From Chloroflexota bacterium (GTDB lineage Bacteria > Chloroflexota > Limnocylindria > Limnocylindrales > CSP1-4), in NCBI GenBank assembly GCA_003141955.1, contig PLOC01000123.1, forward strand, positions 1 through 35,498: 35,498 nt of DNA, in the 5' to 3' direction. Position numbers and translations under genes: made by a program. Within the stretch, counting starts at the first letter, position 1, and each line of letters begins with the position of its first letter. Positions 14,928-35,358 of the stretch are shown here, piece after piece. Below the pieces are notes generated by a model that saw only the letters and a program-made list of their open reading frames with translations, searched no databases and was not told the origin of the DNA.

Positions 14928-14934
14928 GCCGGTG

Positions 14935-16503
14935 ATGACCGCATCCGACTCGGCCTCGAAGGTTCGCCAGGATTCCACGGGCCTGCTCGGCCTGCGCGAC
15001 GTGGCCGCGGCCCTGGAGGTCTGGCGGCGCGACCCGAACGCCGCCACTCACGGTCGCCTGGCCGAGGCTTTCGGGCTGGTCGTGACCGGCTCGGGGCTCG
15101 GCGGCGCCCACCTCCACCTCCACGCGCCGCCTCTCGCCGAGGCCGAAATTCGCTCCGGGAGCCTGCTCGACGAGAGGGTCGAGACGGCCGGCCTGCGGAC
15201 CTACGAGCTCCGCTTCGGCGACCGGACCCTGGCGACGCTCCGGCTTGACGCCCCGCCGGCGGCGCTCTTCTCCGTGGACGAGTGCGCCCGTGGCCTGGAG
15301 ATCGTCATCGGAGCGGCGTGGTCGGAGGCGCGAGCCGGCCAGGCCACCGACGAGCTGGCCGCGCTCGACGCCGCCACTCGGGGCATCGCCGGCGTGCTGG
15401 ATCTGGATCGGGTCCTGCAGCTGATCACGGACCGCGTCCGCGAGCTGGCCCACGCCCAGTACGCCGCCCTCGGGATCGTCGACCAGGAAGGCGGCATCGA
15501 GCGCTTCATTACGAGCGGCATCGGTCGCACCGAGCGCGAGAGGATCGGCGCGCCGCCGCACGGCCACGGCCTGCTCGGCGTCATCGTCGCCGCCAATCAT
15601 CCGCTGCGCGTCCACGACATCGACACGGACCCGCGCCGCTACGGGTTCCCTGCTAATCACCCGCCGATGCATTCACTGCTGGGCATTCCCATCGGGGCGA
15701 AGGGCCGATCCATCGGGCGGCTGTACCTGACCAACAAGCTGCCTTCCGGCGACTTCACCGAGGACGACGAGCGGCTGGTCGAGATGTTCGCCCTGCATGC
15801 CGGCATCGCCATCGAGAACGCCCGCCTCCACGAGCAGGTCCAGCGCCTGGCGATCGTCGAAGAGCGAGAGCGGATCGGCCGCGATCTCCACGACGGCATC
15901 ATCCAGAGCATCTACGCCGTGGGTCTCTCGCTCGAGGATGTCCCGGATCTGATGGAGGACGAGCCTGAAGTCGCCCGCGCCAGAGTCGAGCGCGCCATCG
16001 ATTCGCTCGACCAGTCGATCCGCGACATCCGCAACTTCATCTTCGGTCTTCGCCCCGAACTGCTCGAGCAGGCCGGCCTGGTCGGCGGCCTGGCGGCCCT
16101 GGCAGATGAGTTCCGGGTCAACAGCATGGTGGACGTCGACGTCGAAACCTACGGCGTCGAGGACGTGGACCTCTCGCCCGATCAGACCGGTCAGCTGCTC
16201 TCGATCGCCCGAGAGGCCCTGAGCAACATCGCCCGTCACTCCAAGGCCACCCGAGGAACCGTCAGCGTGGAGGCCCACAATGGCAGGATCAGGCTGACGG
16301 TGAGCGATAACGGCGTCGGCTTCGACCCCGATCAGCAGCGTGGCCCGAGCCATCAGGGCCTGATCAACATGCGCGCCCGGGCCGTCGCGGTAGGTGGACA
16401 TCTGGTGCTCGAAAGCACGCCCGGTGGCGGCACGCGTATCATCGTGGAGGTGGCGCGGCGCGAGACGCTTGGCTCCGGCGCCAGCCAGCTAGGAGACGAA
16501 TGA
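14935..16503 (+). CDS. GAF sensor histidine kinase, DosS/DevS-like
   Basis: Cytoplasmic kinase of the HisKA_3 (NarL-partner) class, 522 residues. An N-terminal region of about 140 residues has weak GAF-like character. A clear GAF domain spans about 155-305, followed by the dimerisation/phosphoacceptor segment with H319 in RERIGRDLHDGIIQSIYAVG and a HATPase_c domain (about 410-510; REALSNIARHSKA as N-box, DNGVGFDPD, GLINMRARA). No TM helix is seen. In the GAF domain HPPM (H242) and LYLTNK (Y264) are 22 residues apart, exactly the spacing of the haem ligand His149 and distal Tyr171 in mycobacterial DosS, so haem-based gas or redox sensing is possible. Start: GTG at 14932 or ATG at 14935. A -10-like TAGGCT lies 7 bases before the ATG. 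Overlaps the regulator gene by ATGA. Confidence 0.92.
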   Translation: MTASDSASKVRQDSTGLLGLRDVAAALEVWRRDPNAATHGRLAEAFGLVVTGSGLGGAHLHLHAPPLAEAEIRSGSLLDERVETAGLRTYELRFGDRTLATLRLDAPPAALFSVDECARGLEIVIGAAWSEARAGQATDELAALDAATRGIAGVLDLDRVLQLITDRVRELAHAQYAALGIVDQEGGIERFITSGIGRTERERIGAPPHGHGLLGVIVAANHPLRVHDIDTDPRRYGFPANHPPMHSLLGIPIGAKGRSIGRLYLTNKLPSGDFTEDDERLVEMFALHAGIAIENARLHEQVQRLAIVEERERIGRDLHDGIIQSIYAVGLSLEDVPDLMEDEPEVARARVERAIDSLDQSIRDIRNFIFGLRPELLEQAGLVGGLAALADEFRVNSMVDVDVETYGVEDVDLSPDQTGQLLSIAREALSNIARHSKATRGTVSVEAHNGRIRLTVSDNGVGFDPDQQRGPSHQGLINMRARAVAVGGHLVLESTPGGGTRIIVEVARRETLGSGASQLGDE

Positions 16504-17171
16504 GCGACCAGATCGATGCACGCCCGCTGCGGCTGCTCGTGGTCGATGATCACGAGGTCGTACGCCAGGGCCTCGTCTCGCTGCTCGACCGGCGCGAGCA
16601 CTTCCAGGTCGTGGCCGAGGCCGGGACTGCGGCCGAGGCCGTGGAGATGGCGCGCAAGTTCGAGCCCGACCTCGTCGTCATGGACGTGCGCCTGCCGGAC
16701 GGCTCCGGGATCGAGGCCTGCCGCGAGATTCGGGCCGAGTTTCCGGCCACTCGGGTCGTGATCCTGACGAGCTACCCGGACGAGGAAGCGGTTCTGTCGG
16801 CGATCATTGCCGGCGCCTCGGGCTATCTGCTCAAGCAGATCCGCAGCCGCGACCTGGTCAGCGCTCTCGAATCCGTCGGCCGCGGCGAGTCGCTGCTCGA
16901 CCCCGCCGTCACCGAGAAAGTGCTCGACCGCGTCCGCCGCATCGCCACCGGAACGTACACGGACGAGATGGCGCAGCTGACCCAGCAGGAGCAGAAGATC
17001 CTGCTGCTGGTGGCCGAAGGGAAGACCAACAAGGAGATCGCCGCGGAGGTCTTCCTGTCGGACAAGACGGTCAAGAACTACGTCAGCTCCATCCTCTCGA
17101 AGCTGAACCTGGAGCGCCGCGCCCAGGCGGCCGCATTCGTCGCCCGCCACAGGCTCAAGGGCGGGGCGTAA
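16500..17171 (+). CDS. NarL/LuxR response regulator, DosR/DevR-like
   Basis: Partner of the preceding kinase (ATGA overlap). The 223 residues comprise a receiver domain with D16/D17, phospho-acceptor D62 in VVMDVRLPDG and the LTS and YLLKQ switch residues. A linker follows, then a LuxR-type helix-turn-helix at about 155-215 (LTQQEQKILLLVAEGKTNKE, FLSDKTVKNYVSSILSKL, RRAQAAAF). That C-terminal wording is very close to mycobacterial DosR, the hypoxia/NO/CO regulator. Regulation of the nearby stress protein, oxidoreductases and hydrogenase maturation genes is a natural guess without direct support. I did not find a clear DosR box. Confidence 0.95.
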   Translation: MSDQIDARPLRLLVVDDHEVVRQGLVSLLDRREHFQVVAEAGTAAEAVEMARKFEPDLVVMDVRLPDGSGIEACREIRAEFPATRVVILTSYPDEEAVLSAIIAGASGYLLKQIRSRDLVSALESVGRGESLLDPAVTEKVLDRVRRIATGTYTDEMAQLTQQEQKILLLVAEGKTNKEIAAEVFLSDKTVKNYVSSILSKLNLERRAQAAAFVARHRLKGGA

Positions 17172-17291
17172 GCCAGCTCGCCGGACGCCGAGCGGGCCTT
17201 GGCTCAGGCGGGCGATCTCTGCTCTGCCCCTCCGGGCCGCCCGGCATCTCCGCCCGTTGCCTTCGGCCCTCACGCAGATTGGCGCGGCCTC

Positions 17292-17297
17292 TAAACT
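17292..17297 (+). promoter_or_regulatory. -10-like hexamer for a leaderless start
   Basis: TAAACT ends 7 bases before the ATG at 17305 and no Shine-Dalgarno is present, so a leaderless transcript is likely. No good -35 element is seen. Confidence 0.4.
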
Positions 17298-17304
17298 CCG
17301 CCTC

Positions 17305-18576
17305 ATGCGTATCGTCAGCGCCGATGAGGCCGTTTCTGTCATCCAGTCAGGTCAGCAGATCTTCATGCACGGCTCCGCTGCGACGCCGTCCGTGCTCCTC
17401 GACGCGCTGTGCAGGCGCGCCCCTCAGCTCCAGGACGTCAAGATCGTTCACATGCACTGCGAGGGCCCACACCCTCACCTCGCGCCGGAGATGGAGGGCC
17501 ACCTCCTCCATCGAGCCGTTTTCATCGGCCCGAACGCGCGCCAGGCGATCAATGAAGGCCGGGCCGAGTTCATCCCCGTCTTCCTGTCGGACATCCCGCG
17601 CCTGATCGAGTCCGGGATCCTGCCATTGGACGCAGTGTTTCTCAACATGACCCCGCCCGACGAGCACGGCTTCTGCTCGCTCGGCACTGCGGTCGACACG
17701 ATGCTTACCGCCGCCCGGTGTGCGAGGATCGTCATCGCCCAGTTCAACAAGAGCATGCCCCGCACCCTGGGCGACAGCTTCGTCCACGTCAGTCAGATCG
17801 ACTTCGGCGTGGAAGTGGACCAGCCGCCCTACACGTATTCGGGTGGCGCCATCGGCGACATCGAGTTGAAGATCGGCGGGTTCGTGGCCGATCTCGTGCC
17901 AGACGAGGCGACCCTGCAGATGGGCATCGGCGCGATCCCCAACGCCGTCGGCCCGGGCTTGTACAGCAAGAAGCACCTCGGAGTTCACACGGAGATGTTC
18001 ACCGACGTGCTGGTCGACCTGGTCGAGCGCGGAGTGGTGACCTGCGACCGTAAGGAGATCAACTGCGGCAAGATCGTTACCACATTCATGATGGGTACCC
18101 AGCGGCTCTACGACTTCGTCGACAACAATCCCATGGTCGAGATGCGGCCGGTCGACTACACGAACGACACCGCCGTCATCCGGCGCTTCAAGCGGATGAC
18201 GGCCATCAACTCGGCGATCGAGGTGGATCTCACCGGCCAGGTGTGCGCGGACTCGATCGGACACCGCATGTACAGCGGCGTCGGCGGCCAGATGGACTTC
18301 ATGCGCGGCGCGGCCCTGGCCGATGAAGGGCGGGCCATCATCGCGTTGCCCTCCACCGGTGCCGAGGGCAAGTTCTCCCGTATCACGGCCAGCCTGAAAG
18401 AAGGAGCCGGCGTGACGACGACCCGTTCCCACGTTCGAACGGTCGTGACTGAGTTCGGTGTCGCCGAGCTCTTCGGGCAGAGCTTCCGTGAGCGGGCCAA
18501 GCGCTTGATCGCCATCGCCCACCCCGACTTCCGCGACGAGCTCACGACGTACGCAAAGAAGTACCACGAGCTGTAG
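17305..18576 (+). CDS. acetyl-CoA hydrolase/4-hydroxybutyrate CoA-transferase family protein
   Basis: Single-chain family I CoA-transferase of the Cat/AbfT type, which moves CoA from acetyl-CoA or another donor to 4-hydroxybutyrate, butyrate or a similar acid. The 423 residues show NMTPPDEHGFCSLGTAVDTM, a QMGIGAIPNAV segment, E230 in GVHTEMFTDVLVDLVERG at the catalytic-glutamate position and YSGVGGQMDFMRGA near the C-terminal CoA-binding part. The ATG at 17305 has no Shine-Dalgarno but a -10-like TAAACT 7 bases upstream. It follows the DosS/DosR-like pair but has its own promoter-like sequence. It is distinct from the two-subunit enzyme at 11923-13673, so the window holds two different CoA-transferase types. 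4-hydroxybutyrate would link with GABA transamination 6 kb upstream; this is inference. Confidence 0.9.
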   Translation: MRIVSADEAVSVIQSGQQIFMHGSAATPSVLLDALCRRAPQLQDVKIVHMHCEGPHPHLAPEMEGHLLHRAVFIGPNARQAINEGRAEFIPVFLSDIPRLIESGILPLDAVFLNMTPPDEHGFCSLGTAVDTMLTAARCARIVIAQFNKSMPRTLGDSFVHVSQIDFGVEVDQPPYTYSGGAIGDIELKIGGFVADLVPDEATLQMGIGAIPNAVGPGLYSKKHLGVHTEMFTDVLVDLVERGVVTCDRKEINCGKIVTTFMMGTQRLYDFVDNNPMVEMRPVDYTNDTAVIRRFKRMTAINSAIEVDLTGQVCADSIGHRMYSGVGGQMDFMRGAALADEGRAIIALPSTGAEGKFSRITASLKEGAGVTTTRSHVRTVVTEFGVAELFGQSFRERAKRLIAIAHPDFRDELTTYAKKYHEL

Positions 18577-20189: not shown

Positions 20190-20711
20190 TCGCTGCCAGC
20201 AGAGCTATACCGGCCCAGCAGATCAACCTTGTGGCATACCCGATCGGGCGGCTTGAGCTTCTGCCAGCAGCCGGCGCCGGAATCTCCATCCAGATCCCTC
20301 TCGACGAGTTGAGAATGCTGGCCAGAATGGCAGTCAGGGCCACGTCCGAAACCTGAGCGGGCATTATAGGGCCGGGTGCGGCCGGAGGGCGACCGCCCGC
20401 TTCCGACGAGGCACACCTGGGCCGGGCAGATGTCAGGTTTGGGGCGCGTTCTTTCTCGTGCTGCGGCGGGGCACTCTGCAGCTGGACCAGGGCCCGCCAG
20501 GTGCCGTGCCCAGGACTCGCCAGAGGCCGCCAAAGGCCACTCGGACAGTGGCCAGGTAGGCAGTCTGGATCACAGCATCAGCGAGGCGCTGGCGTCGGAA
20601 CTCGACGCGGTCCCCACAGGGTAGAAGACGCCAAAGTCTTGTCCCAGGGCGAGAGGAGGACACCCGTTCGGGCAGGCCGCTCCCATCCCGGCCCGTCCCC
20701 GTGCGGGCCAT
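20190..20711. other. 522-base region without an assigned gene
   Basis: The part up to about 20289 may be the true 5' end of the minus-strand glycosyltransferase-like gene in another frame. The rest holds no gene I recognise. On the minus strand a frame reading LADAVIQTAYLATVRVAFGG (around 20500-20590) looks somewhat helix-like but has no start or family support. The promoter of the plus-strand oxidoreductase operon must lie here, but no convincing -10/-35 pair is evident. Confidence 0.4.
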
Positions 20712-23120
20712 ATGGCCCCCGGCATTAGGGAGCCCTGTCGCTACGGGTGGAGAGGCCACAGCGCGCACGCTATGCGCATGCTCGCCGATACCAATCTGCC
20801 TTTGCGTCGACTGCTCATCGTCAGTCAGCACCGCGCGGCAACCGAGGCGCTCTGCGATCACCTCTCGCGTCACGGCTTCGCGATCGTCGCCCAGGCGACT
20901 TCCGCCGAGTCCGCGGCGCGTGATTGCGCTGCCTCGAACCCGGACGTGGTGCTGCTCGATGCGGACGTGCCAGGCGGTTGGCGGCCAGTTGTGGCGGCAC
21001 TGCGCGACTGCATCCCCGCGGAGCGGATCGCCGTGCTCGCCTCCTACTGGCATGCGGACGAGCAGCGCGAGGCGGTCGCCAGCGGGATTGGCGGCACCCT
21101 GCTCAAGCACTTGGACGGAAGCGCACTGGCCCGCCAGTTGCGCGCATTGGGTGAACCGACCATCGTGACGAATTCGCCGACACCCGAGTTTCCAGGCATC
21201 CCGGCCATCATCGACGGCTCGGAGGCCATCGCCCACGTCGAGTCGCGGATCAGCGACGGCGCATGCGCCTACCCGATCACGCCCTCGACAACCATGGCCG
21301 CGGTCTACCAGGTCGCCGTGGCCAATGGCACCCCGAACATCTGGGGCACCACGCTGAAGTTCATCGAGCCCGAGTCGGAGCATTCCTCCGCTTCTGCCGC
21401 CGAGGGCTTTGCTCTCGCCGGTGGCCGGGTCACGAACTTCACGGCCGGACAGGGACTCATCCTGATGAAGGAAGTCCTGTATGTCATTGCCGGCAAGCGC
21501 CTGCCCGTGGTCTTCCACGTGGGTGCCCGCGCGCTGACCAGCCAGAGCCTGAACATCCACGCCGGCCACGACGACCTGATGGGCGTCGCGGACTGCGGCT
21601 GGGGCATGTTCTTCTCGCGCAACTGCCAGGAGGCGGCGGACCTGACCGCCATCGCCCGACGCGTTGCCGAGGACGGCGAGACGCCGTGGTTCGTGGCCCA
21701 GGATGGGTTCCTGACGACCCACACGATCGAGAACGTCCGGCTGCCCGAGGACGAGCTCCTGAAGCGCTTCGTGGGCGACCCCCGCGTGACGGTCCGCGAT
21801 CTGTTCGACACCAAGGACGGTCTCATGTCCGGCGTCGTCCAGAATCAGGACTCATACATGAAGGGCCGCATCGCCCAGCGCGCCTGGTACGACAGGCTCG
21901 TCGAGATCACCGAGCGTGCCATGGCCGAATGGGCTGCCCTCACGGGGCGCCCGTACGGCCTGATCCAGACGTACAAGACCGAAGACGCCGACTATGTCAT
22001 GGTTTCGATGGGGACCATGGCGGACACGGCTCTGGCGGTCGTCGACCACCTCCGCGCCGCCGGCCGCAAGGTCGGTTGCATCACGGTCACCTGCTTCCGC
22101 CCCTTCCCGGCGAAGCAGCTGGCGAAGGCCCTGGCCAACGCCAAGGTCGTGGCCGTCGTGGAGCGCACGGACGAGCCTGCGGCCGCGGACAATCCGCTGA
22201 CCCGCGAGCTCAAGTCGGCCCTCGCCGATGCGGCGATGGACGGGGCCCGCCTGCCGCGTGTTGTGTCGGCCTCGGCCGGCCTCGGCTCGCGCGACATCCA
22301 GCCCGGCGACCTCGCGGCCGTCTTCGACTGGATTGCCGACGAGAAGGCCGTCAAGGAGCGCAAGCACGCTGTGCTCGGCATCCGCCACCCGCTCGCACTC
22401 AAGAAGAGTGACGTCAACATTCGCCCCCGCGGCGCCTACAGCCTGCGCGGCCACTCGGTCGGCGGCTTCGGCTCGGTCACCACGAACAAGCTCGTGGCGA
22501 CCACCGTTGGCGAGCTCTTCAATCTGTACGTTCAGGCCTACCCGCGCTACGGCTCGGAGAAGAAGGGCCTGCCCACTACGTACTTCCTGACCATTGCCGA
22601 GGAGCCGATCCGGCTCCACAACGAGCTGACCGAAGTCGACTTCGTGCCGCTCTTCGACACCAACTCCTTCAAGCAGGGCGATCCGCTCGCCGGTCTCGTG
22701 AACGGTGGCACGGTCTTCGTGCCGACGCCGCTGACCGACCCGGACGAGATCTGGGCCGCTCTACCGCCGGCGACCCGGGCCGAGATCCTGGCTCGCAAGA
22801 TTCGGCTTCTCGCCCTGGACACGGCGGCACTCGCCATGAAGTACGCGCCTCGAGCGGACCTCGAGATCCGAATGCAGGGCGTCGCCCTGGTGGGCGTCTT
22901 CCTCAAGGTCTCACCGTTCGCCGAGCGGGCCGGCCTCGACCGACCCGCGCTGATGGAGGCCGTGCGAGCCAATCTCACTCGCTTCTTCGGGAAGCGCGGC
23001 ACCTCGGTCGTCGATGCCAACCTGGCCGTTATCCAGGGCGCCTACGACGGCGTGATCGACGTCACGGCGGCGATCACTGCCGGCGGCGCCCACGCGGCGG
23101 CCGCCCAGGCGACGCGATGA
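20712..23120 (+). CDS. pyruvate:ferredoxin oxidoreductase alpha/gamma chain with N-terminal receiver-like domain
   Basis: First half of a NifJ-type oxoacid oxidoreductase, 802 residues. Residues 31-148 look like a response-regulator receiver: LLIVSQHRAATEALCDHL, then D83 in PDVVLLDADVPGG at the phospho-site and K132 in GTLLKH. The two Mg-binding acids are replaced by S38/Q39, so it is probably a pseudo-receiver. From about 164 comes the alpha (pyruvate-binding) part: CAYPITPSTTMAAVYQ, EPESEHSSASAAEGFALAGG and VVFHVGARALTSQSLNIHAG (with the substrate Arg). Then follow a transketolase C-like part and, from about 570, the gamma domain (YSLRGHSVGGFGSVTTNK). The frame runs without interruption. 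Start uncertain: ATG 20712, 20772 or 20778, none with a good Shine-Dalgarno, but all keep the receiver-like domain. It overlaps the CBS gene by ATGA. The reaction is oxidative decarboxylation of pyruvate (or a close 2-oxoacid) to acyl-CoA with ferredoxin reduction. Confidence 0.9.
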   Translation: MAPGIREPCRYGWRGHSAHAMRMLADTNLPLRRLLIVSQHRAATEALCDHLSRHGFAIVAQATSAESAARDCAASNPDVVLLDADVPGGWRPVVAALRDCIPAERIAVLASYWHADEQREAVASGIGGTLLKHLDGSALARQLRALGEPTIVTNSPTPEFPGIPAIIDGSEAIAHVESRISDGACAYPITPSTTMAAVYQVAVANGTPNIWGTTLKFIEPESEHSSASAAEGFALAGGRVTNFTAGQGLILMKEVLYVIAGKRLPVVFHVGARALTSQSLNIHAGHDDLMGVADCGWGMFFSRNCQEAADLTAIARRVAEDGETPWFVAQDGFLTTHTIENVRLPEDELLKRFVGDPRVTVRDLFDTKDGLMSGVVQNQDSYMKGRIAQRAWYDRLVEITERAMAEWAALTGRPYGLIQTYKTEDADYVMVSMGTMADTALAVVDHLRAAGRKVGCITVTCFRPFPAKQLAKALANAKVVAVVERTDEPAAADNPLTRELKSALADAAMDGARLPRVVSASAGLGSRDIQPGDLAAVFDWIADEKAVKERKHAVLGIRHPLALKKSDVNIRPRGAYSLRGHSVGGFGSVTTNKLVATTVGELFNLYVQAYPRYGSEKKGLPTTYFLTIAEEPIRLHNELTEVDFVPLFDTNSFKQGDPLAGLVNGGTVFVPTPLTDPDEIWAALPPATRAEILARKIRLLALDTAALAMKYAPRADLEIRMQGVALVGVFLKVSPFAERAGLDRPALMEAVRANLTRFFGKRGTSVVDANLAVIQGAYDGVIDVTAAITAGGAHAAAAQATR

Positions 23121-23512
23121 CCGAAACTCGCAAGGTTGGGGATGTCATGACCCCCAACCCGGTCTCGATCTCGGAGTCGGCCTCCCTCGCGGAAGCCGCC
23201 GCCCTGCTTGGCAGCAAGGAGATCTCCGGCCTGCCCGTTGTCGATGCGAGCGGGTCCCTGGTCGGAGTCCTGAGTCAGACCGACCTCATCAAGGCGCAGG
23301 CGAACCCCGGGCTTTCTGCGAACTGGCGGGGCCTGCCCGTGGGAGAAATCATGACAAAACCGGCGCTGACCATCCCCTCGACCGCGGGCCTCGACGAGGC
23401 CGCGCGGCTGATGGGTGAGCGTCGAGTCCACCGCCTCGTCGTCACGGACGCGGCGGCCACCCCGATCGGAATCATCTCGGCCAGCGACCTCGTGCGGTCG
23501 TGGCTGCGATAG
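23117..23512 (+). CDS. two-CBS-domain protein
   Basis: The 131-residue protein is nothing but a Bateman pair. CBS1 covers about 5-60 (VGDVMTPNPVSISESASLAE, ISGLPVVDASGSLVGVLSQT with following D). CBS2 covers about 72-128 (VGEIMTKPALTIPSTAGLDE, RRVHRLVVTD, PIGIISASDLV). Such pairs bind AMP, ATP, SAM or similar adenosyl ligands and act as energy or nucleotide sensors for a partner. Its start overlaps the stop of the oxidoreductase alpha/gamma gene (ATGA), and the beta gene starts 21 bases after it, so it is made together with both subunits. A regulatory subunit or regulator of the oxidoreductase is the natural inference. No DNA-binding or catalytic domain is present. Confidence 0.93.
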   Translation: MTETRKVGDVMTPNPVSISESASLAEAAALLGSKEISGLPVVDASGSLVGVLSQTDLIKAQANPGLSANWRGLPVGEIMTKPALTIPSTAGLDEAARLMGERRVHRLVVTDAAATPIGIISASDLVRSWLR

Positions 23513-23533: not shown

Positions 23534-25231
23534 ATGACAGAGACAATTGCTACCGAGAAGAACGGAAAGGGCCAGCTCCCAGGCATGCTGGCCAACCTTC
23601 CCGCGGGTCCGGGGCGCATTGCGCCGCAGACCTTGGACATCCGCGCCTACATCAAAGACTTCAACACCACGGTCATAGACGCGTATCGCAGCGGCGTCGC
23701 CGATGTCGAGCTGCCCGCCGACATGGGCGTCGGGCGCAGCCTGATCGCACCGGCAACGGCCGCAACCCGCGATTTCAGCAGCCTCTCGCCGCTGATCCCG
23801 CAGTTCGTGGCCGAACAGTGCGTGGGCTGCATGGCCTGCGTCAGCGCCTGCCCCGACAGCGCCATCGTCGCCACGGCCCAGCCAAAGGCCGCCCTGGCCG
23901 CCGCGATCGAGACGTTCGCGGCCAGCCAGCCGAACCCGGCGCTGGCCGCCGAGACGGCGAAGCAGCACTTCGTCCACACCACCAAGTACGCCGACGTGCC
24001 CGCCAAGCGCGGCCTCGAGCCGGCGGACTTCGGGCTCTTCATCGATCCTCTGCACTGCAAGGGCTGCGCCGAGTGCGTCGACGTCTGCCTGGCCCAGGGC
24101 CACACCGCTCTCGTCATGGCGGAGAAGTGCGACTGCGAGCCGAGCGGCGAGTGCACGCTCGATCGCTACCGCCGCGACATCGCCTTCTACAGGAGCCTGC
24201 CCACGACCCCCGTCGCGTACCGCAACGAGAAGGCCCTGGCCGACATCATGCTCGGCGAGCACGCCTTCGGCTTCGTCGGCGGCGGCGGTTCCTGTTCGGG
24301 CTGCGGCGAAGGCACGGTCGTCCGGATGGTGATGGCCGCCACTCTGCAGGTCTACGGCCCGCAGAGCATGGGCATCGTCGCCGAGACTGGCTGCAATACC
24401 GTGTTCGCCAGCACTTACCCGTACAACCCGTTCACGGTTCCGTGGACCAACTCGCTCTTCGAGAACGGCCCGGCCGATGCGCTTGGCATCCGGCTGCGCT
24501 GGGATCAGGCGGGTCACGCGGATCGGCGGCTGTGGGTCTTCGGGGGCGACGGCGCCATGTACGACATCGGCTTCCAGTCGCTGTCGCGCCTGGTCGCCTC
24601 GGGCCACGACATCAAGGTCCTGGTCCTGGACACCGGCGTTTACTCGAACACCGGCGGCCAGACCTCCACCGCTTCCTTCACAGCCCAGGTCTCCAAGCTC
24701 TCCGCCTACGGCAAGGCCGAGCACGGCAAGCAGGAGAAGCGCAAGGAGCTGGGCCGGATCATGATGGCCCATGGCGACGCCTACGTCGCTCAGGTCGCGG
24801 CCTGCAACATCAACCATCTCTACAAGGCAGTGATGGAGGCCAACGCCTATGCGGGCCCGGCCGTCATCATCGCCTACACGCCGTGCATGCCGGAGCACGG
24901 CATCGCCGACGATGCCGCTAACCGCCAGGCCAAGCTCGCCGTGGAGTCGCGGGCCTTCCCGCTCTTCACGTACGACCCGCGCCGCGGCGACTCGCTCGCC
25001 GAGCGGCTCTCGCTCCAGGGCAACCCGGCGGTCAAGGAAGACTGGTCGAAGAACCCCGACGGGACCACCTTCGACTTCATCTCCTTCGCCCGCACGGAAG
25101 GTCGCTTCCGCCAGCACTTCGACGCGGAGGGCAGCCCCTCCCACGAGCTGCAGGCCTCGCAGGAGGACCGCCTCCACGACTGGCGAATCCTCCAGGAGAT
25201 GGCCGGCGTCCTGCGCGCGGCAGGCCACTAG
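23534..25231 (+). CDS. pyruvate:ferredoxin oxidoreductase beta chain with ferredoxin domain
   Basis: Second half of the NifJ-type enzyme, 565 residues, equal to the C-terminal part of a one-chain NifJ. Residues about 30-90 correspond to the linker before the ferredoxin domain. Two [4Fe-4S] motifs follow, CVGCMACVSACP and CKGCAECVDVC, the second ending in Leu instead of the usual Pro. The TPP domain (about 240-480) has GGDGAMYDIG and VYSNTGGQTSTAS for thiamine diphosphate and Mg binding. C254 and C257 (CSGCGE), C287 (TGCNT) and C451 (YTPCMPEHG) match the four ligands of the proximal cluster. All residues needed for electron transfer from TPP through three clusters to ferredoxin are present. 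The start ATG at 23534 is MTETIATEKN. It ends 20 bases before a strong bidirectional terminator shared with the convergent kor-type operon. Confidence 0.94.
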   Translation: MTETIATEKNGKGQLPGMLANLPAGPGRIAPQTLDIRAYIKDFNTTVIDAYRSGVADVELPADMGVGRSLIAPATAATRDFSSLSPLIPQFVAEQCVGCMACVSACPDSAIVATAQPKAALAAAIETFAASQPNPALAAETAKQHFVHTTKYADVPAKRGLEPADFGLFIDPLHCKGCAECVDVCLAQGHTALVMAEKCDCEPSGECTLDRYRRDIAFYRSLPTTPVAYRNEKALADIMLGEHAFGFVGGGGSCSGCGEGTVVRMVMAATLQVYGPQSMGIVAETGCNTVFASTYPYNPFTVPWTNSLFENGPADALGIRLRWDQAGHADRRLWVFGGDGAMYDIGFQSLSRLVASGHDIKVLVLDTGVYSNTGGQTSTASFTAQVSKLSAYGKAEHGKQEKRKELGRIMMAHGDAYVAQVAACNINHLYKAVMEANAYAGPAVIIAYTPCMPEHGIADDAANRQAKLAVESRAFPLFTYDPRRGDSLAERLSLQGNPAVKEDWSKNPDGTTFDFISFARTEGRFRQHFDAEGSPSHELQASQEDRLHDWRILQEMAGVLRAAGH

Positions 25232-25298: not shown

Positions 25299-25853
25299 CT
25301 ACGCGGCCACTCCGATCCGGCCGGCTTCCATGCCGGCGGCGAAGACGCCCAGGTCCGCCTCGATGATCTCCGGCCGCTTCCGGGCGGAGATCTCGCGCAG
25401 CGCGGCCTGAACCGAATCTGGGGTCACCCAGCCCAGCCGCGCCACGAGGGCGCCAAGGGCCACGACGCTGACGAGCTTGTCATCGCCGCCTTTGGCCGCG
25501 AGGTCCGTGCACGGAAGCCGCAGCTCGTCGATGTCGGCCCGGGCGGAGGTCTGCGAGGTGACCAGCGAGGCGTTCACGATCAGCAGCCCGCCAGGAGCCA
25601 CGCTCGGGCCGTACTTGCGCAGCGACGGCAGGTTCATCGCGACCGCGGCGTCGAACTGGTCGACGACCGGGGAGCCGATCGGATGATCCGCCACGATGAC
25701 CGTGCAGGAGGCCGTGCCACCCCGCATCTCCGGGCCGTATGAGGGGATCCAGAAGACCTCCAGGCCATCCTTGATAGCGGCGCGGGCGAGAACCTGGCCG
25801 GTGAAGAGGAGACCCTGGCCGCCGAAGCCGGAGAAGACGACGGAACGTTCCAT
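25299..25853 (-). CDS. 2-oxoacid:ferredoxin oxidoreductase gamma subunit
   Basis: Gamma subunit (KorC/VorC/PorG type), 184 residues and last gene of the operon. SGFGGQGLLFTGQVLARAAI at the N-terminus, IPSYGPEMRGGTASCTVIV and ADHPIGSPVVDQFDAAVAMN are the family hallmarks. The C-terminal KRPEIIEADLGVFAAG segment is also typical. It starts 1 base after the beta subunit stop. The domain equals the gamma region of the NifJ-type enzyme on the facing operon, so the window has two full 2-oxoacid oxidoreductases. Whether this one works on 2-oxoglutarate or branched 2-oxoacids is not decided by the gamma subunit. Confidence 0.93.
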   Translation of the reverse strand: MERSVVFSGFGGQGLLFTGQVLARAAIKDGLEVFWIPSYGPEMRGGTASCTVIVADHPIGSPVVDQFDAAVAMNLPSLRKYGPSVAPGGLLIVNASLVTSQTSARADIDELRLPCTDLAAKGGDDKLVSVVALGALVARLGWVTPDSVQAALREISARKRPEIIEADLGVFAAGMEAGRIGVAA

Positions 25854-25854
25854 C

Positions 25855-26684
<830 letters not shown>

Positions 26685-26688
<4 letters not shown>

Positions 26689-27959
26689 CGCTCGCCTCCG
26701 TCGCGAACGCTCGCGTGGGCGTCGGCCTCGGCCCGGTGGGTCCGTTCCGGCGGACCGGTGACCGCGGCCCGGCCGTGCGCGGACTGCCCCTCGGCGCGCC
26801 CGGCGTGCCGCTTCTGCTGCTGCTTACGCTCTCGCTCGCGCGTCCGCTCGACCTTGCCGTGCAGCGCCTTCAGAGCGCCGACGACTTCGTCCGGGGTCGG
26901 CACCAGGCCGCCCATTCGACCGTGGAAGCCGACCGGACATCGACCTTCGACCGCCAGGCGGACGTCTTCGACCATCTGGCCCGACGAAAGCTCGACCGTG
27001 AGGATGGCGTGGGCGTGCCGGGCGACCCGAGCCAGCTCCCGGCTCGGGAACGGCCAGAGCGTGATCGGGCGGAAAAGGCCGGCCTTGATGCCCCGGGCGC
27101 GGGCCTTCTCGATGGCGCTCCGCGCCACGCGGGCCGCCGTGCCGTAGGCGACCAGGACGTACTCGGCGTCGTCCATCAACTCGGTGGCCCAGCGGGTTTC
27201 CTGGCGCGAGATCTCCGCGTACTTGCGCTGGAGGGCGATGTTGCGCTTCTCGAGGATCTCTGGCACCAGGTCGATCGACTTGATGATCCGCGCCGGACGC
27301 CCGGCGGCCCCGGTCAGGGCCCAGTCGAAGGCGTGACGTTCCGGGTTGCGGAAGCGCAGCTCCACCGGCTCCATGGCCTGGCCCAGGATTCCGTCCACGA
27401 CGACCATGACCGGCGTGCGGTATCGCTCCGCCAGCTCGAAGGCCGTCGCCATCAGCTCCATCGCCTCGCCGATCGAGGCAGGGGCCAGCACCGGGACCCG
27501 GTAGTCGCCGTGGCCGTGGCCCTTCGTCGCCTGAAAGTAGTCGCTCTGCGACGGCCCGATGCCGCCCAGGCCGGGCCCGGCGCGCATGACGTTGACCAGC
27601 ACCATCGGCGTCCCTGAGCCGGCCATGTAGCTCATGCCCTCGGCCATGAGGCTGATCCCCGGGCTCGAGGACGAGACCAGGACCCGGGCGCCCGTGGCGG
27701 CCGCGCCGAGGGCCATGTTGATTGCGCCGAGCTCGCTCTCGGCCTGGACGAAAGCGCGACCCAGTTCGGGCATCCGGCGGGCCATCCATTCCAGCAGCTC
27801 GGCCTGGGGCGTGATGGGATAGCCGAAGTACGCGTCGCAGCCGGCCTGGATTGCCGCCTCGGCGATCGCCTCGTTGCCCTTCATTAGGACACGGGAGCGG
27901 CGGCCGGAGTCCTTATCGGACGATCGCGGGCGGATGCCGGTTTCGAGCGGTTCGGTCAT
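26685..27959 (-). CDS. 2-oxoacid:ferredoxin oxidoreductase alpha subunit (VorB/KorA-like)
   Basis: Substrate-binding subunit, 424 residues. RVLMKGNEAIAEAAIQAGCD and YFGYPITPQAELLEWMARRM begin the pyrimidine-type domain. QAESELGAINMALGAAATGA and SSSSPGISLMAEGMSYMAGS follow, then PGLGGIGPSQSDYFQATKGH. This wording is that of subunits often annotated as 3-methyl-2-oxobutanoate oxidoreductase VorB, so branched-chain oxoacid oxidation is a good candidate, with 2-oxoglutarate the alternative. From residue about 365 the chain continues past the expected end with some 60 residues rich in Arg, Glu, Gln, His and Ala, an unusual charged tail. Its start ATG at 27959 overlaps the ferredoxin gene stop (ATGA). 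An upstream extension of the frame is the ferredoxin gene shadow. Confidence 0.92.
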
Positions 27960-28243
27960 CGGGCACGCTCCTCTCGCGGCATCCGCGGCGCGGCCCAGAC
28001 CGTGAAGACTGTGTCCGGGCAGATGCGGGCGCAGAAGGCGCAGCTGGTGCAGGCCGAAGCGTCGGTCAGCGCGATGGGGTGGTAGCCGAGGATGTTGACC
28101 CGGCCTCGGTCCAGGGCGAGGACGGACTTGGGGCATGCAGCCACGCACAGCTCGCAGCCCTTGCAGCGTTCCTCGGCGATGACGAGAGGTGTCCACGGCA
28201 CGGGAGGTCGAGGCAACCGCATCGCAACTGGACTGATCGCCAT
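27956..28243 (-). CDS. 2-oxoacid:ferredoxin oxidoreductase delta subunit (ferredoxin-like)
   Basis: Small electron-transfer subunit of 95 residues, first gene of the delta-alpha-beta-gamma operon. Two classical [4Fe-4S] motifs are present: CKGCELCVAACPKSV (about residues 27-41) and CTSCAFCARICPDTV (about 64-78). Internal electrons from the TPP subunit would pass through these to external ferredoxin. The start ATG at 28243 has no strong Shine-Dalgarno; a second Met lies at residue 8. It is divergent from the radical SAM gene with a 286-base spacer. Confidence 0.93.
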   Translation of the reverse strand: MAISPVAMRLPRPPVPWTPLVIAEERCKGCELCVAACPKSVLALDRGRVNILGYHPIALTDASACTSCAFCARICPDTVFTVWAAPRMPREERAR

Positions 28244-28529
28244 CTGTATTCACTTTCTGTTGCGGAGCCCGTCGCCGAACAGGCCGCCGGCCACCGGGCC
28301 TGCGGCAGTCCCGCAACCGGGACTTGTTGCTCGTAGCCTCCCGCGGGCCCCTTCCAGAGGCAAGGGCCGAACGACCCATCGGCCGAGCGGGAAGTACGAC
28401 GTCCCGTTACTCGGCCGGGTAGGCCCGCCAGGCCGTCACGGCCGCTGCGATGGCATACTGCAGATGGATCGGGTCGGAACCATTGGCCCTGTTCACGAGG
28501 GACGGCCAGACCGCACTCTGAGGGCCTTC

Positions 28530-34225: not shown

Positions 34226-35358
34226 GCACCGACCGGCGGCCGACGGCCGATCCCTTCGCCTCGCCGGCGGGTGTGCCGGCGGCCAGGGCGGGGGAGCCCA
34301 CCGCCGCGCCCGACCCCGCGAACCTCGTGTGCCCGGCGCCGATCCCCGAGCGAGCGCGCGTCCTGCTGGGCCACGGCTCCGGCGGCCAGCTCTCGGCGGC
34401 GCTGATGCGCGAGGTCATCGGGCCGGCGCTGGCGGCGGCGGCGCCGGGCGGTCCGCTCAACGACGCCGCAGTGGTGGAAGTCGCCGGCCAGCGGCTGGCC
34501 TTCACGACCGATTCCTTCGTGGTCAGCCCGCTCGAGTTCCCCGGTGGCGATATCGGTGAGCTTGCCGTGAACGGCACCGTCAACGACCTGGCGATGATGG
34601 GCGCCCAGCCGGTCGCGCTCTCGCTGGCCTACGTCATCGAGGAAGGCCTGCCGATCGAGGACCTGCGTCGCGTGACCGAATCGGTCGCCCGGGCAGCCGG
34701 CCGGGCAGGCGTCCGGATCGTAACCGGCGACACGAAGGTGGTCGGTCGGGGAGCGGCGGACGGTCTGTTCGTCAACACCGCCGGCATCGGGCTGGTCGCG
34801 GACGGAGTTTCCGTGGGCGCCGATCGAGCGGAAGCCGGCGACGCTGTGATCCTGTCCGGGCCGATCGGCCTCCACGGCATCGCCATCATGAGCGTCCGCG
34901 AGGGCCTGGACTTCGAGGTCGAGATTGCCTCCGATACCCAGCCGCTCAACGGCCTGGTCGCCGCGATCGTCGCCGCGTGCCCCGACGTGCACGTTCTGCG
35001 CGACCCGACGCGGGGCGGCCTGGCATCGGCGCTGAACGAGATCGCCGCCGCCTCCGGCGCCGGCATCGAGTTGGCCGAGGAGACGATCCCGATCCCCGGC
35101 CCCGTGCGCGCCGCGTGCGAGATGCTCGGCCTGGACCCCCTCCACGTCGCCAACGAGGGCAAGCTCGTGGCGATCGTGCCCGCCGCCTCAGCCGGGGCGG
35201 TGCTGGCGGCCATGCGCGCCGTCCCCACGGGAGCGGACGCCGTCGAGATCGGCCGCGTGGTCGGCGATCACCCGGCCATGGTCACGATGCGCACCATCGT
35301 CGGCTCGCAGCGCATCGTAGACATGCTTGTCGGGGAGCAGCTGCCTCGCATCTGCTAG
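34222..35358 (+). CDS. hypE: hydrogenase maturation protein HypE
   Basis: Dehydrates the HypF-made thiocarbamate on its C-terminal cysteine to thiocyanate and delivers cyanide to HypD. The PurM-like fold of 378 residues has [39 protein letters not shown] and [31 protein letters not shown] follows, then [16 protein letters not shown] in the second half. The chain ends PRIC, so the essential C-terminal Cys (residue 378) is present. A roughly 40-residue N-terminal Ala/Pro-rich extension precedes the conserved part. It is the last gene visible in the hypAFCDE cluster. Confidence 0.97.

Follow-up and report, generated by a model that had tools for sequence, protein, structure and literature searches.

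What a receiver domain does at the front of a pyruvate:ferredoxin oxidoreductase (POR) is the question raised by one open reading frame of the window, the 35,498 nt stretch of Chloroflexota DNA analyzed here. ORF 20712-23120 (802 aa) continues without a stop from a receiver-like part into POR, as an earlier note on this DNA had described, and the residues quoted in that note (S38/Q39, D83 and K132) are correct, lying at 20823-20828, 20958-20960 and 21105-21107. Counted from the ATG at 20778 they are S16, Q17, D61 and K110 of the domain, which is referred to below as psR (pseudo-receiver). Translation likely begins at this ATG or the one at 20772; a start at 20712 was rejected because alignments of all the genus relatives begin at MLA(D/T/E), and in several of them the few codons upstream contain a stop or offer no Met. 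The features of the locus are collected in Table 1.

Table 1. Features of the psR-POR locus, in window coordinates.
Feature	Position	Strand	Details
DevS-like histidine kinase (GAF, HisKA_3, HATPase_c)	14932..16503	+	Pfam domains
DevR-like (NarL family) response regulator	16500..17171	+	PF00072 + GerE; receiver is sister of psR (95/75)
Acetyl/butyryl-CoA transferase family enzyme (CoAT)	17257..18576 (start approximate)	+	PF13336, PF02550
GGGCCATATGGCCC palindrome, predicted DevR/OsdR-type box	20705..20718	+	59 nt before ATG 20778; invariant in the genus loci read
psR, pseudo-receiver domain	20778..21158	+	127 aa; ATG 20778 (alternative ATG 20772); PF00072 32.4 bits; AlphaFold pLDDT 87; VIA Z 18.7; 40 genomes, one copy each
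Fusion junction/linker TIVTNSPTPEFPG	21159..21197	+	GTG at 21165-21167 invariant in all fused genes, close to where POR formerly began
POR alpha-gamma chain (POR_N, PFOR_II, POR)	21165..23120	+	PF01855 2.9e-55, PF17147 4e-21, PF01558 1.1e-26
CBS-pair protein	23117..23512	+	Overlaps POR by ATGA; PF00571 1.9e-32; same place in most split-POR loci
POR delta-beta chain (4Fe-4S + TPP-binding C-terminal part)	23534..25231	+	PF02775, Fer4; TIGR02176 positions 954-1139

Three checks that the note had proposed (an HMM search, a fold prediction and a search for conserved fusions) all bore out the receiver. The isolated domain scored 32.4 bits against Pfam PF00072 (Response_reg; cut-off 30.2), compared with 28.2 bits in the full protein, where psR is followed by the POR_N, PFOR_II and POR domains. 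AlphaFold, run on 25 psR sequences, returned a (beta-alpha)5 fold with a pLDDT of 87, and the best PDB matches of this model, among those listed, were receivers or receiver-like (Z 17.2-18.7), with rmsd values against solved receivers of 1.5-2.4 Å, mostly 1.5-2 Å. By sequence, DevR is the closest natural protein with a solved structure. The model of the full-length fusion (10 sequences) was poor (pLDDT 52, pTM 0.44), and the placement of psR on POR was not taken from it. The same in-frame fusion is present in one genome of a second genus and in about 17 further genomes of the window's own genus, with psR sequences 72-98% identical, and dN/dS of psR is about 0.05-0.29, a range that includes two species (G017 and G015) without this POR. 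The receiver fold, the same-frame recurrence in relatives and the low dN/dS together confirm the observation and exclude chance.

Across the 177 genomes of the class, psR is found once per genome in 40, all of them from six genera of a single family, and none was detected in the class beyond these genera. The carriers are uncultured Chloroflexi MAGs, many recovered from fens (peat/soil), one of them named as Limnocylindrales. A search for the fusion outside the family covered 400 genomes of the phylum Chloroflexi, 135 of which had a POR-like match, and the match reached the start of psR only in the two genera already known, with the proviso that a fusion to a very different receiver could be missed by this search. 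Frame breaks occur in the POR alpha-gamma gene of G012 (L079 10324-10486) and the POR delta-beta gene of G020 (L080 ~12990), and may be MAG errors or real decay.

The arrangement of psR differs between the six genera. It is fused in frame to POR alpha-gamma in the window's genus (g1) and in g22. In g20 the two are separate genes, with psR lying just upstream of POR alpha-gamma, and in g19 psR shares an ATGA overlap with a one-piece NifJ from another lineage, whose identity to the window's POR is about 32%. In g7 and g23 there is no POR nearby, and POR lies elsewhere in the genome. Thus, psR is a separate gene in four genera, and POR is adjacent to it (or fused) in four of the six. Within g1, this POR has been lost from two species, G017 and G015, in which psR ends directly at a stop. 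A tree built on the kinase, the CoA-transferase and a second oxidoreductase places both among the fused species (100/98 as a pair, 95/98 with G020 and G007), and their psR is of the shorter form typical of that subclade. The simplest course of events would be a separate psR that became fused, followed by loss of POR with psR kept. A stop or a separate gene in related genomes had been named in the earlier note as evidence against the fusion: the frame is open in the fused members of g1 and g22, a stop is present in G017 and G015, and the gene is separate in four genera. The separate gene and the retention of psR without this POR do not support, as it stands, the note's view of the domain as chiefly an input to POR. 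Since psR is still under purifying selection in the two species without this POR, it appears to be more than an extension of POR, with a job of its own; it may nevertheless also control POR directly.

The active site of psR is that of a degenerate receiver. Among the 25 sequences, the phospho-acceptor D61, K110 and W68 are invariant, while the first acidic position (DD1) is S or G, its acidic residue gone in 25/25, the Thr/Ser position is A in 19, S in five and E in one (Thr/Ser lost in 20/25), and the switch aromatic is replaced by T or V throughout. At the second acidic position (DD2), the one that binds the metal directly (PMC12632262), all sequences of the fused lineage (g1 and g22) have Q and all the rest have D, so that the acidic pair lost its remaining ligand in the same lineage in which the fusion is found. 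With PF00072 recognizable and active-site residues missing, psR is a pseudo-receiver as defined in PMC12632262, and lacks the complete set of a canonical phosphorylated receiver (acidic pair, Asp, Thr/Ser and Lys). No conserved Cys, and no four-Cys Fe-S motif of the Caulobacter FixT kind, was found in the psR alignment. The missing acids had been read in the earlier note as a sign of phosphorylation-independent control or protein docking, and with DD1 lost in all sequences and DD2 changed in the fused lineage, docking without phosphorylation is indeed probable. Some residual phosphorylation may be possible outside the fused lineage, as D61 and K110 are strictly kept and DD2 is retained there.

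The genes around psR point to a signaling system. The order kinase, regulator, CoAT, psR is found in every psR locus with full context, with or without POR. In a tree that took in about 30 receivers of the window's genome (and in which the row of G015 labelled locRR is its psR), the psR sequences form one clade (100/100) whose sister is the receivers of the locus regulators (95/75). The GAF domain of the kinase matches the heme GAF (GAF-A) of M. tuberculosis DevS/DosT at ~1e-30, and the histidine of its conserved HPPM motif, presumably the counterpart of DevS His149, is taken to be the proximal heme ligand. Judged by its sequence, the kinase has the domain set of DevS/DosS: a heme-type GAF with proximal His, HisKA_3 and HATPase_c. 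The role of DevS His149 has been described (PMC4082495). In genera without psR the regulator often directly precedes a split POR (G133, G037 and G030), so genomes that lack psR can also connect this two-component system with POR. The CoA-transferase gene is present as a tandem pair in G016 (L084 6440-9116), with a partial extra copy in G020. Between CoAT and psR, a strong hairpin occurs once in loci of g7, g19 and g23 (L070 6220-6258, L068 8764-8802 and L081 5025-5063); its loop is invariant (GCGTCCCCTGCG core), stem changes compensate between genera, and the 15-mer core is present once per genome in the three such genomes tested (3/3). It has no Rfam match and was not found at this place in g1.

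Upstream of psR lies a predicted DevR/OsdR-type box, and most psR loci of other genera have GGGCCGAAT/CGGCCC at a distance of 57-60 nt from the psR ATG, on its upstream side. A similar GGGCC-N4-GGCCC box also precedes most unfused POR genes. The pattern agrees with the OsdR consensus, AGGGCCGATCGGCCCT, itself in keeping with the DevR consensus (PMC5069765). Sites with at least 13 of the 14 pattern positions were found within 250 nt of 23/25 psR loci and 14/15 unfused POR genes, whereas only 5.7% of 250-nt stretches taken at random had one, counts in which loci of one genus are not independent. At three psR loci (L108, L096 and L100) the best site is elsewhere and the one near -58 is weaker, and two loci of g7 have a degenerate box ahead of psR. 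The exact box is not enriched genome-wide (10 hits vs 11 in the reversed control), so assignment to a regulon rests on its position and its conservation between genera, and from these we infer that the psR and POR genes share DevR/OsdR-type control. In the window's genome an exact box also occurs 42 nt before a gene for a single-domain Crp/Fnr-like cNMP-binding protein, named by eye (L143, G000 contig C5, box near 34750), which is a candidate second member of the regulon.

The enzyme itself appears, from its sequence, to be a POR in two pieces. The alpha-gamma chain was aligned to the solved PFORs 7plm and 1b0p at 1e-80, with equivalents of T31, E64 and R114, which we take to be the catalytic Thr31, Glu64 and Arg114 of the D. 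africanus enzyme, and the beta part retains YSNTGGQ. The domains and catalytic residues of PFOR/NifJ are therefore present in the sequence. The score against TIGR02176 is 375.9 bits (cut-off 911.35), because POR is split into two chains where that family has a single chain of ~1170-1230 aa; the term NifJ-type used in the earlier note holds for domains and residues but not for the one-piece form. The POR halves are separated by a CBS-pair gene here, as they are at most loci of the family that have a split POR, a position that suggests nucleotide control of POR. Convergent to the POR operon, on the minus strand, are the gamma, beta and alpha genes of a second 2-oxoacid:ferredoxin oxidoreductase (25299-28379), with a box-like site, GGGCCGAACGACCC, at 28364-28377.

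Given a separate psR gene in four genera and its retention after the loss of POR, the constant partner of psR would be the kinase, the regulator or CoAT. By analogy with FixT, the most likely job of psR itself is to dock, independently of phosphorylation, on the kinase or the regulator. The DevS-like kinase would sense low oxygen or redox state, and the regulator would bind the box at 20705 and induce the operon of psR-POR, CBS and POR delta-beta; psR, no longer accepting a phosphoryl group, would dock on one of these two partners encoded at its own locus and feed back on signaling, a task that the standalone psR would perform in other genera. Fused to POR, psR would give a feedback signal that scales with the amount of POR made, and could bring POR to the signaling complex. 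This FixT-like feedback, linked to POR by the fusion, is our preferred explanation, and is put forward tentatively. The further idea that the fused psR physically ties POR to the oxygen/redox-sensing kinase or regulator, with direct mutual control between POR abundance or activity and DevS-like signaling and without phosphotransfer, is doubtful.

Alternatively, psR may act on an enzyme, by docking or allosterically, to couple POR to CoAT (the maker of acetyl-CoA to its user) or to gate the assembly or activity of POR. With POR adjacent to psR in four of six genera, by fusion in two of them and by the ATGA overlap with a one-piece NifJ in g19, a POR-directed role fits as well, and since CoAT adjoins psR in all genera, as its constant neighbor, docking on a metabolic enzyme keeps a place among the explanations. 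However, POR is elsewhere in the genome in g7 and g23, and two species kept psR after losing this POR; overall, we consider an enzyme-directed psR possible, if on the unlikely side.

The fusion might also be incidental, the psR stop having been lost and POR having given up its own promoter, with an internal GTG still making ordinary POR and the fused form adding little. The junction joins the end of psR to the start of POR, unfused POR genes starting about 10-20 codons before FPGIPA, which in the fusion is close to V130. This residue is encoded by GTG (21165-21167) in every fused gene, and when the first 520 codons are compared, codons 123-131 hold the seven-codon window with the strongest synonymous conservation (a majority-codon fraction of 0.983 on average, vs 0.768 overall). 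In view of this synonymous constraint around an invariant GTG, a retained start at V130 may yield some free POR, although no clear Shine-Dalgarno sequence precedes the GTG at 21165 (nor is one clear before psR). Moreover, neither of the two genera has closed the frame, despite the ease with which a stop would be gained, except in the two species without this POR. That the fusion is of little consequence thus seems rather improbable.

A phosphorylation-driven input, in which the kinase phosphorylates D61 and so switches POR on or off, would suit the invariant D61 and K110, but was dropped as very unlikely because the fused lineage has S and Q at the acidic positions, A at the Thr/Ser position and T at the switch aromatic. 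An assembly artefact or chance open frame might be suspected in high-GC MAG data with POR frame breaks in some relatives, but its probability is negligible, the frame, junction and residues being identical in about 19 assemblies from two genera, with a receiver fold and dN/dS well under 1.

FixT is a FixLJ-induced single-domain receiver that inhibits the autophosphorylation of FixL, and its four-Cys motif is specific to Caulobacter (PMC7078487). Like FixT, psR is a receiver-only protein in four genera and two g1 species, is encoded with an oxygen/redox kinase and a NarL/FixJ-type regulator, is apparently induced by that system, and probably acts without phosphorylation. It differs in being related to DevR-like receivers, in having no conserved Cys motif and in its fusion to POR in one lineage, and a FixT-like inhibition here is an analogy. 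The kinase and regulator resemble DevS/DevR (DosS/DosR) and OsdK/OsdR in the GAF kinase, NarL-type regulator and GGGCC-N4-GGCCC box, but the Chloroflexi version is tied to POR, CoAT and psR. A laboratory-made M. tuberculosis fusion, DevRN-Kan (DevR receiver and the unrelated enzyme AphI), competed in vitro for the phosphosignal of DevS, and DevR signaling was blocked (PMC2829086). Pseudo-receivers (PsR/ARR), which share with psR a receiver fold missing several of the five active-site residues, are common, and their control has been described as a mystery (PMC12632262); psR is distinct in its attachment to a central metabolic enzyme and its invariant D and K. Fusions of receivers to metabolic enzymes such as thioredoxin reductase and pyruvate phosphate dikinase are a known kind, also on standard enzymes and of narrow distribution (PMC5847659), whereas psR is joined to another enzyme, is degenerate and has the neighboring regulator as its nearest kin. 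The POR has domains I-III and the catalytic residues of NifJ/PFOR and is TIGR02176-like, but is split into two chains with the CBS gene between and has the extra N-terminal psR. Neither a REC-POR fusion nor a DevR-related pseudo-receiver on POR was found in a literature search conducted largely without subscription journals.

What psR provides is a natural series, from separate gene through NifJ overlap and POR fusion to POR loss with psR kept, beside a DevS/DevR-like system, with which one can test whether the target of a dead receiver is its kinase or a metabolic enzyme. The psR-POR protein suggests a link from oxygen signaling to acetyl-CoA and ferredoxin flow, and that low-oxygen signaling and central carbon metabolism are physically coupled in this group of peat-soil Chloroflexi. 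If true, a central fermentative enzyme would here be connected to a two-component system with no phosphotransfer involved.
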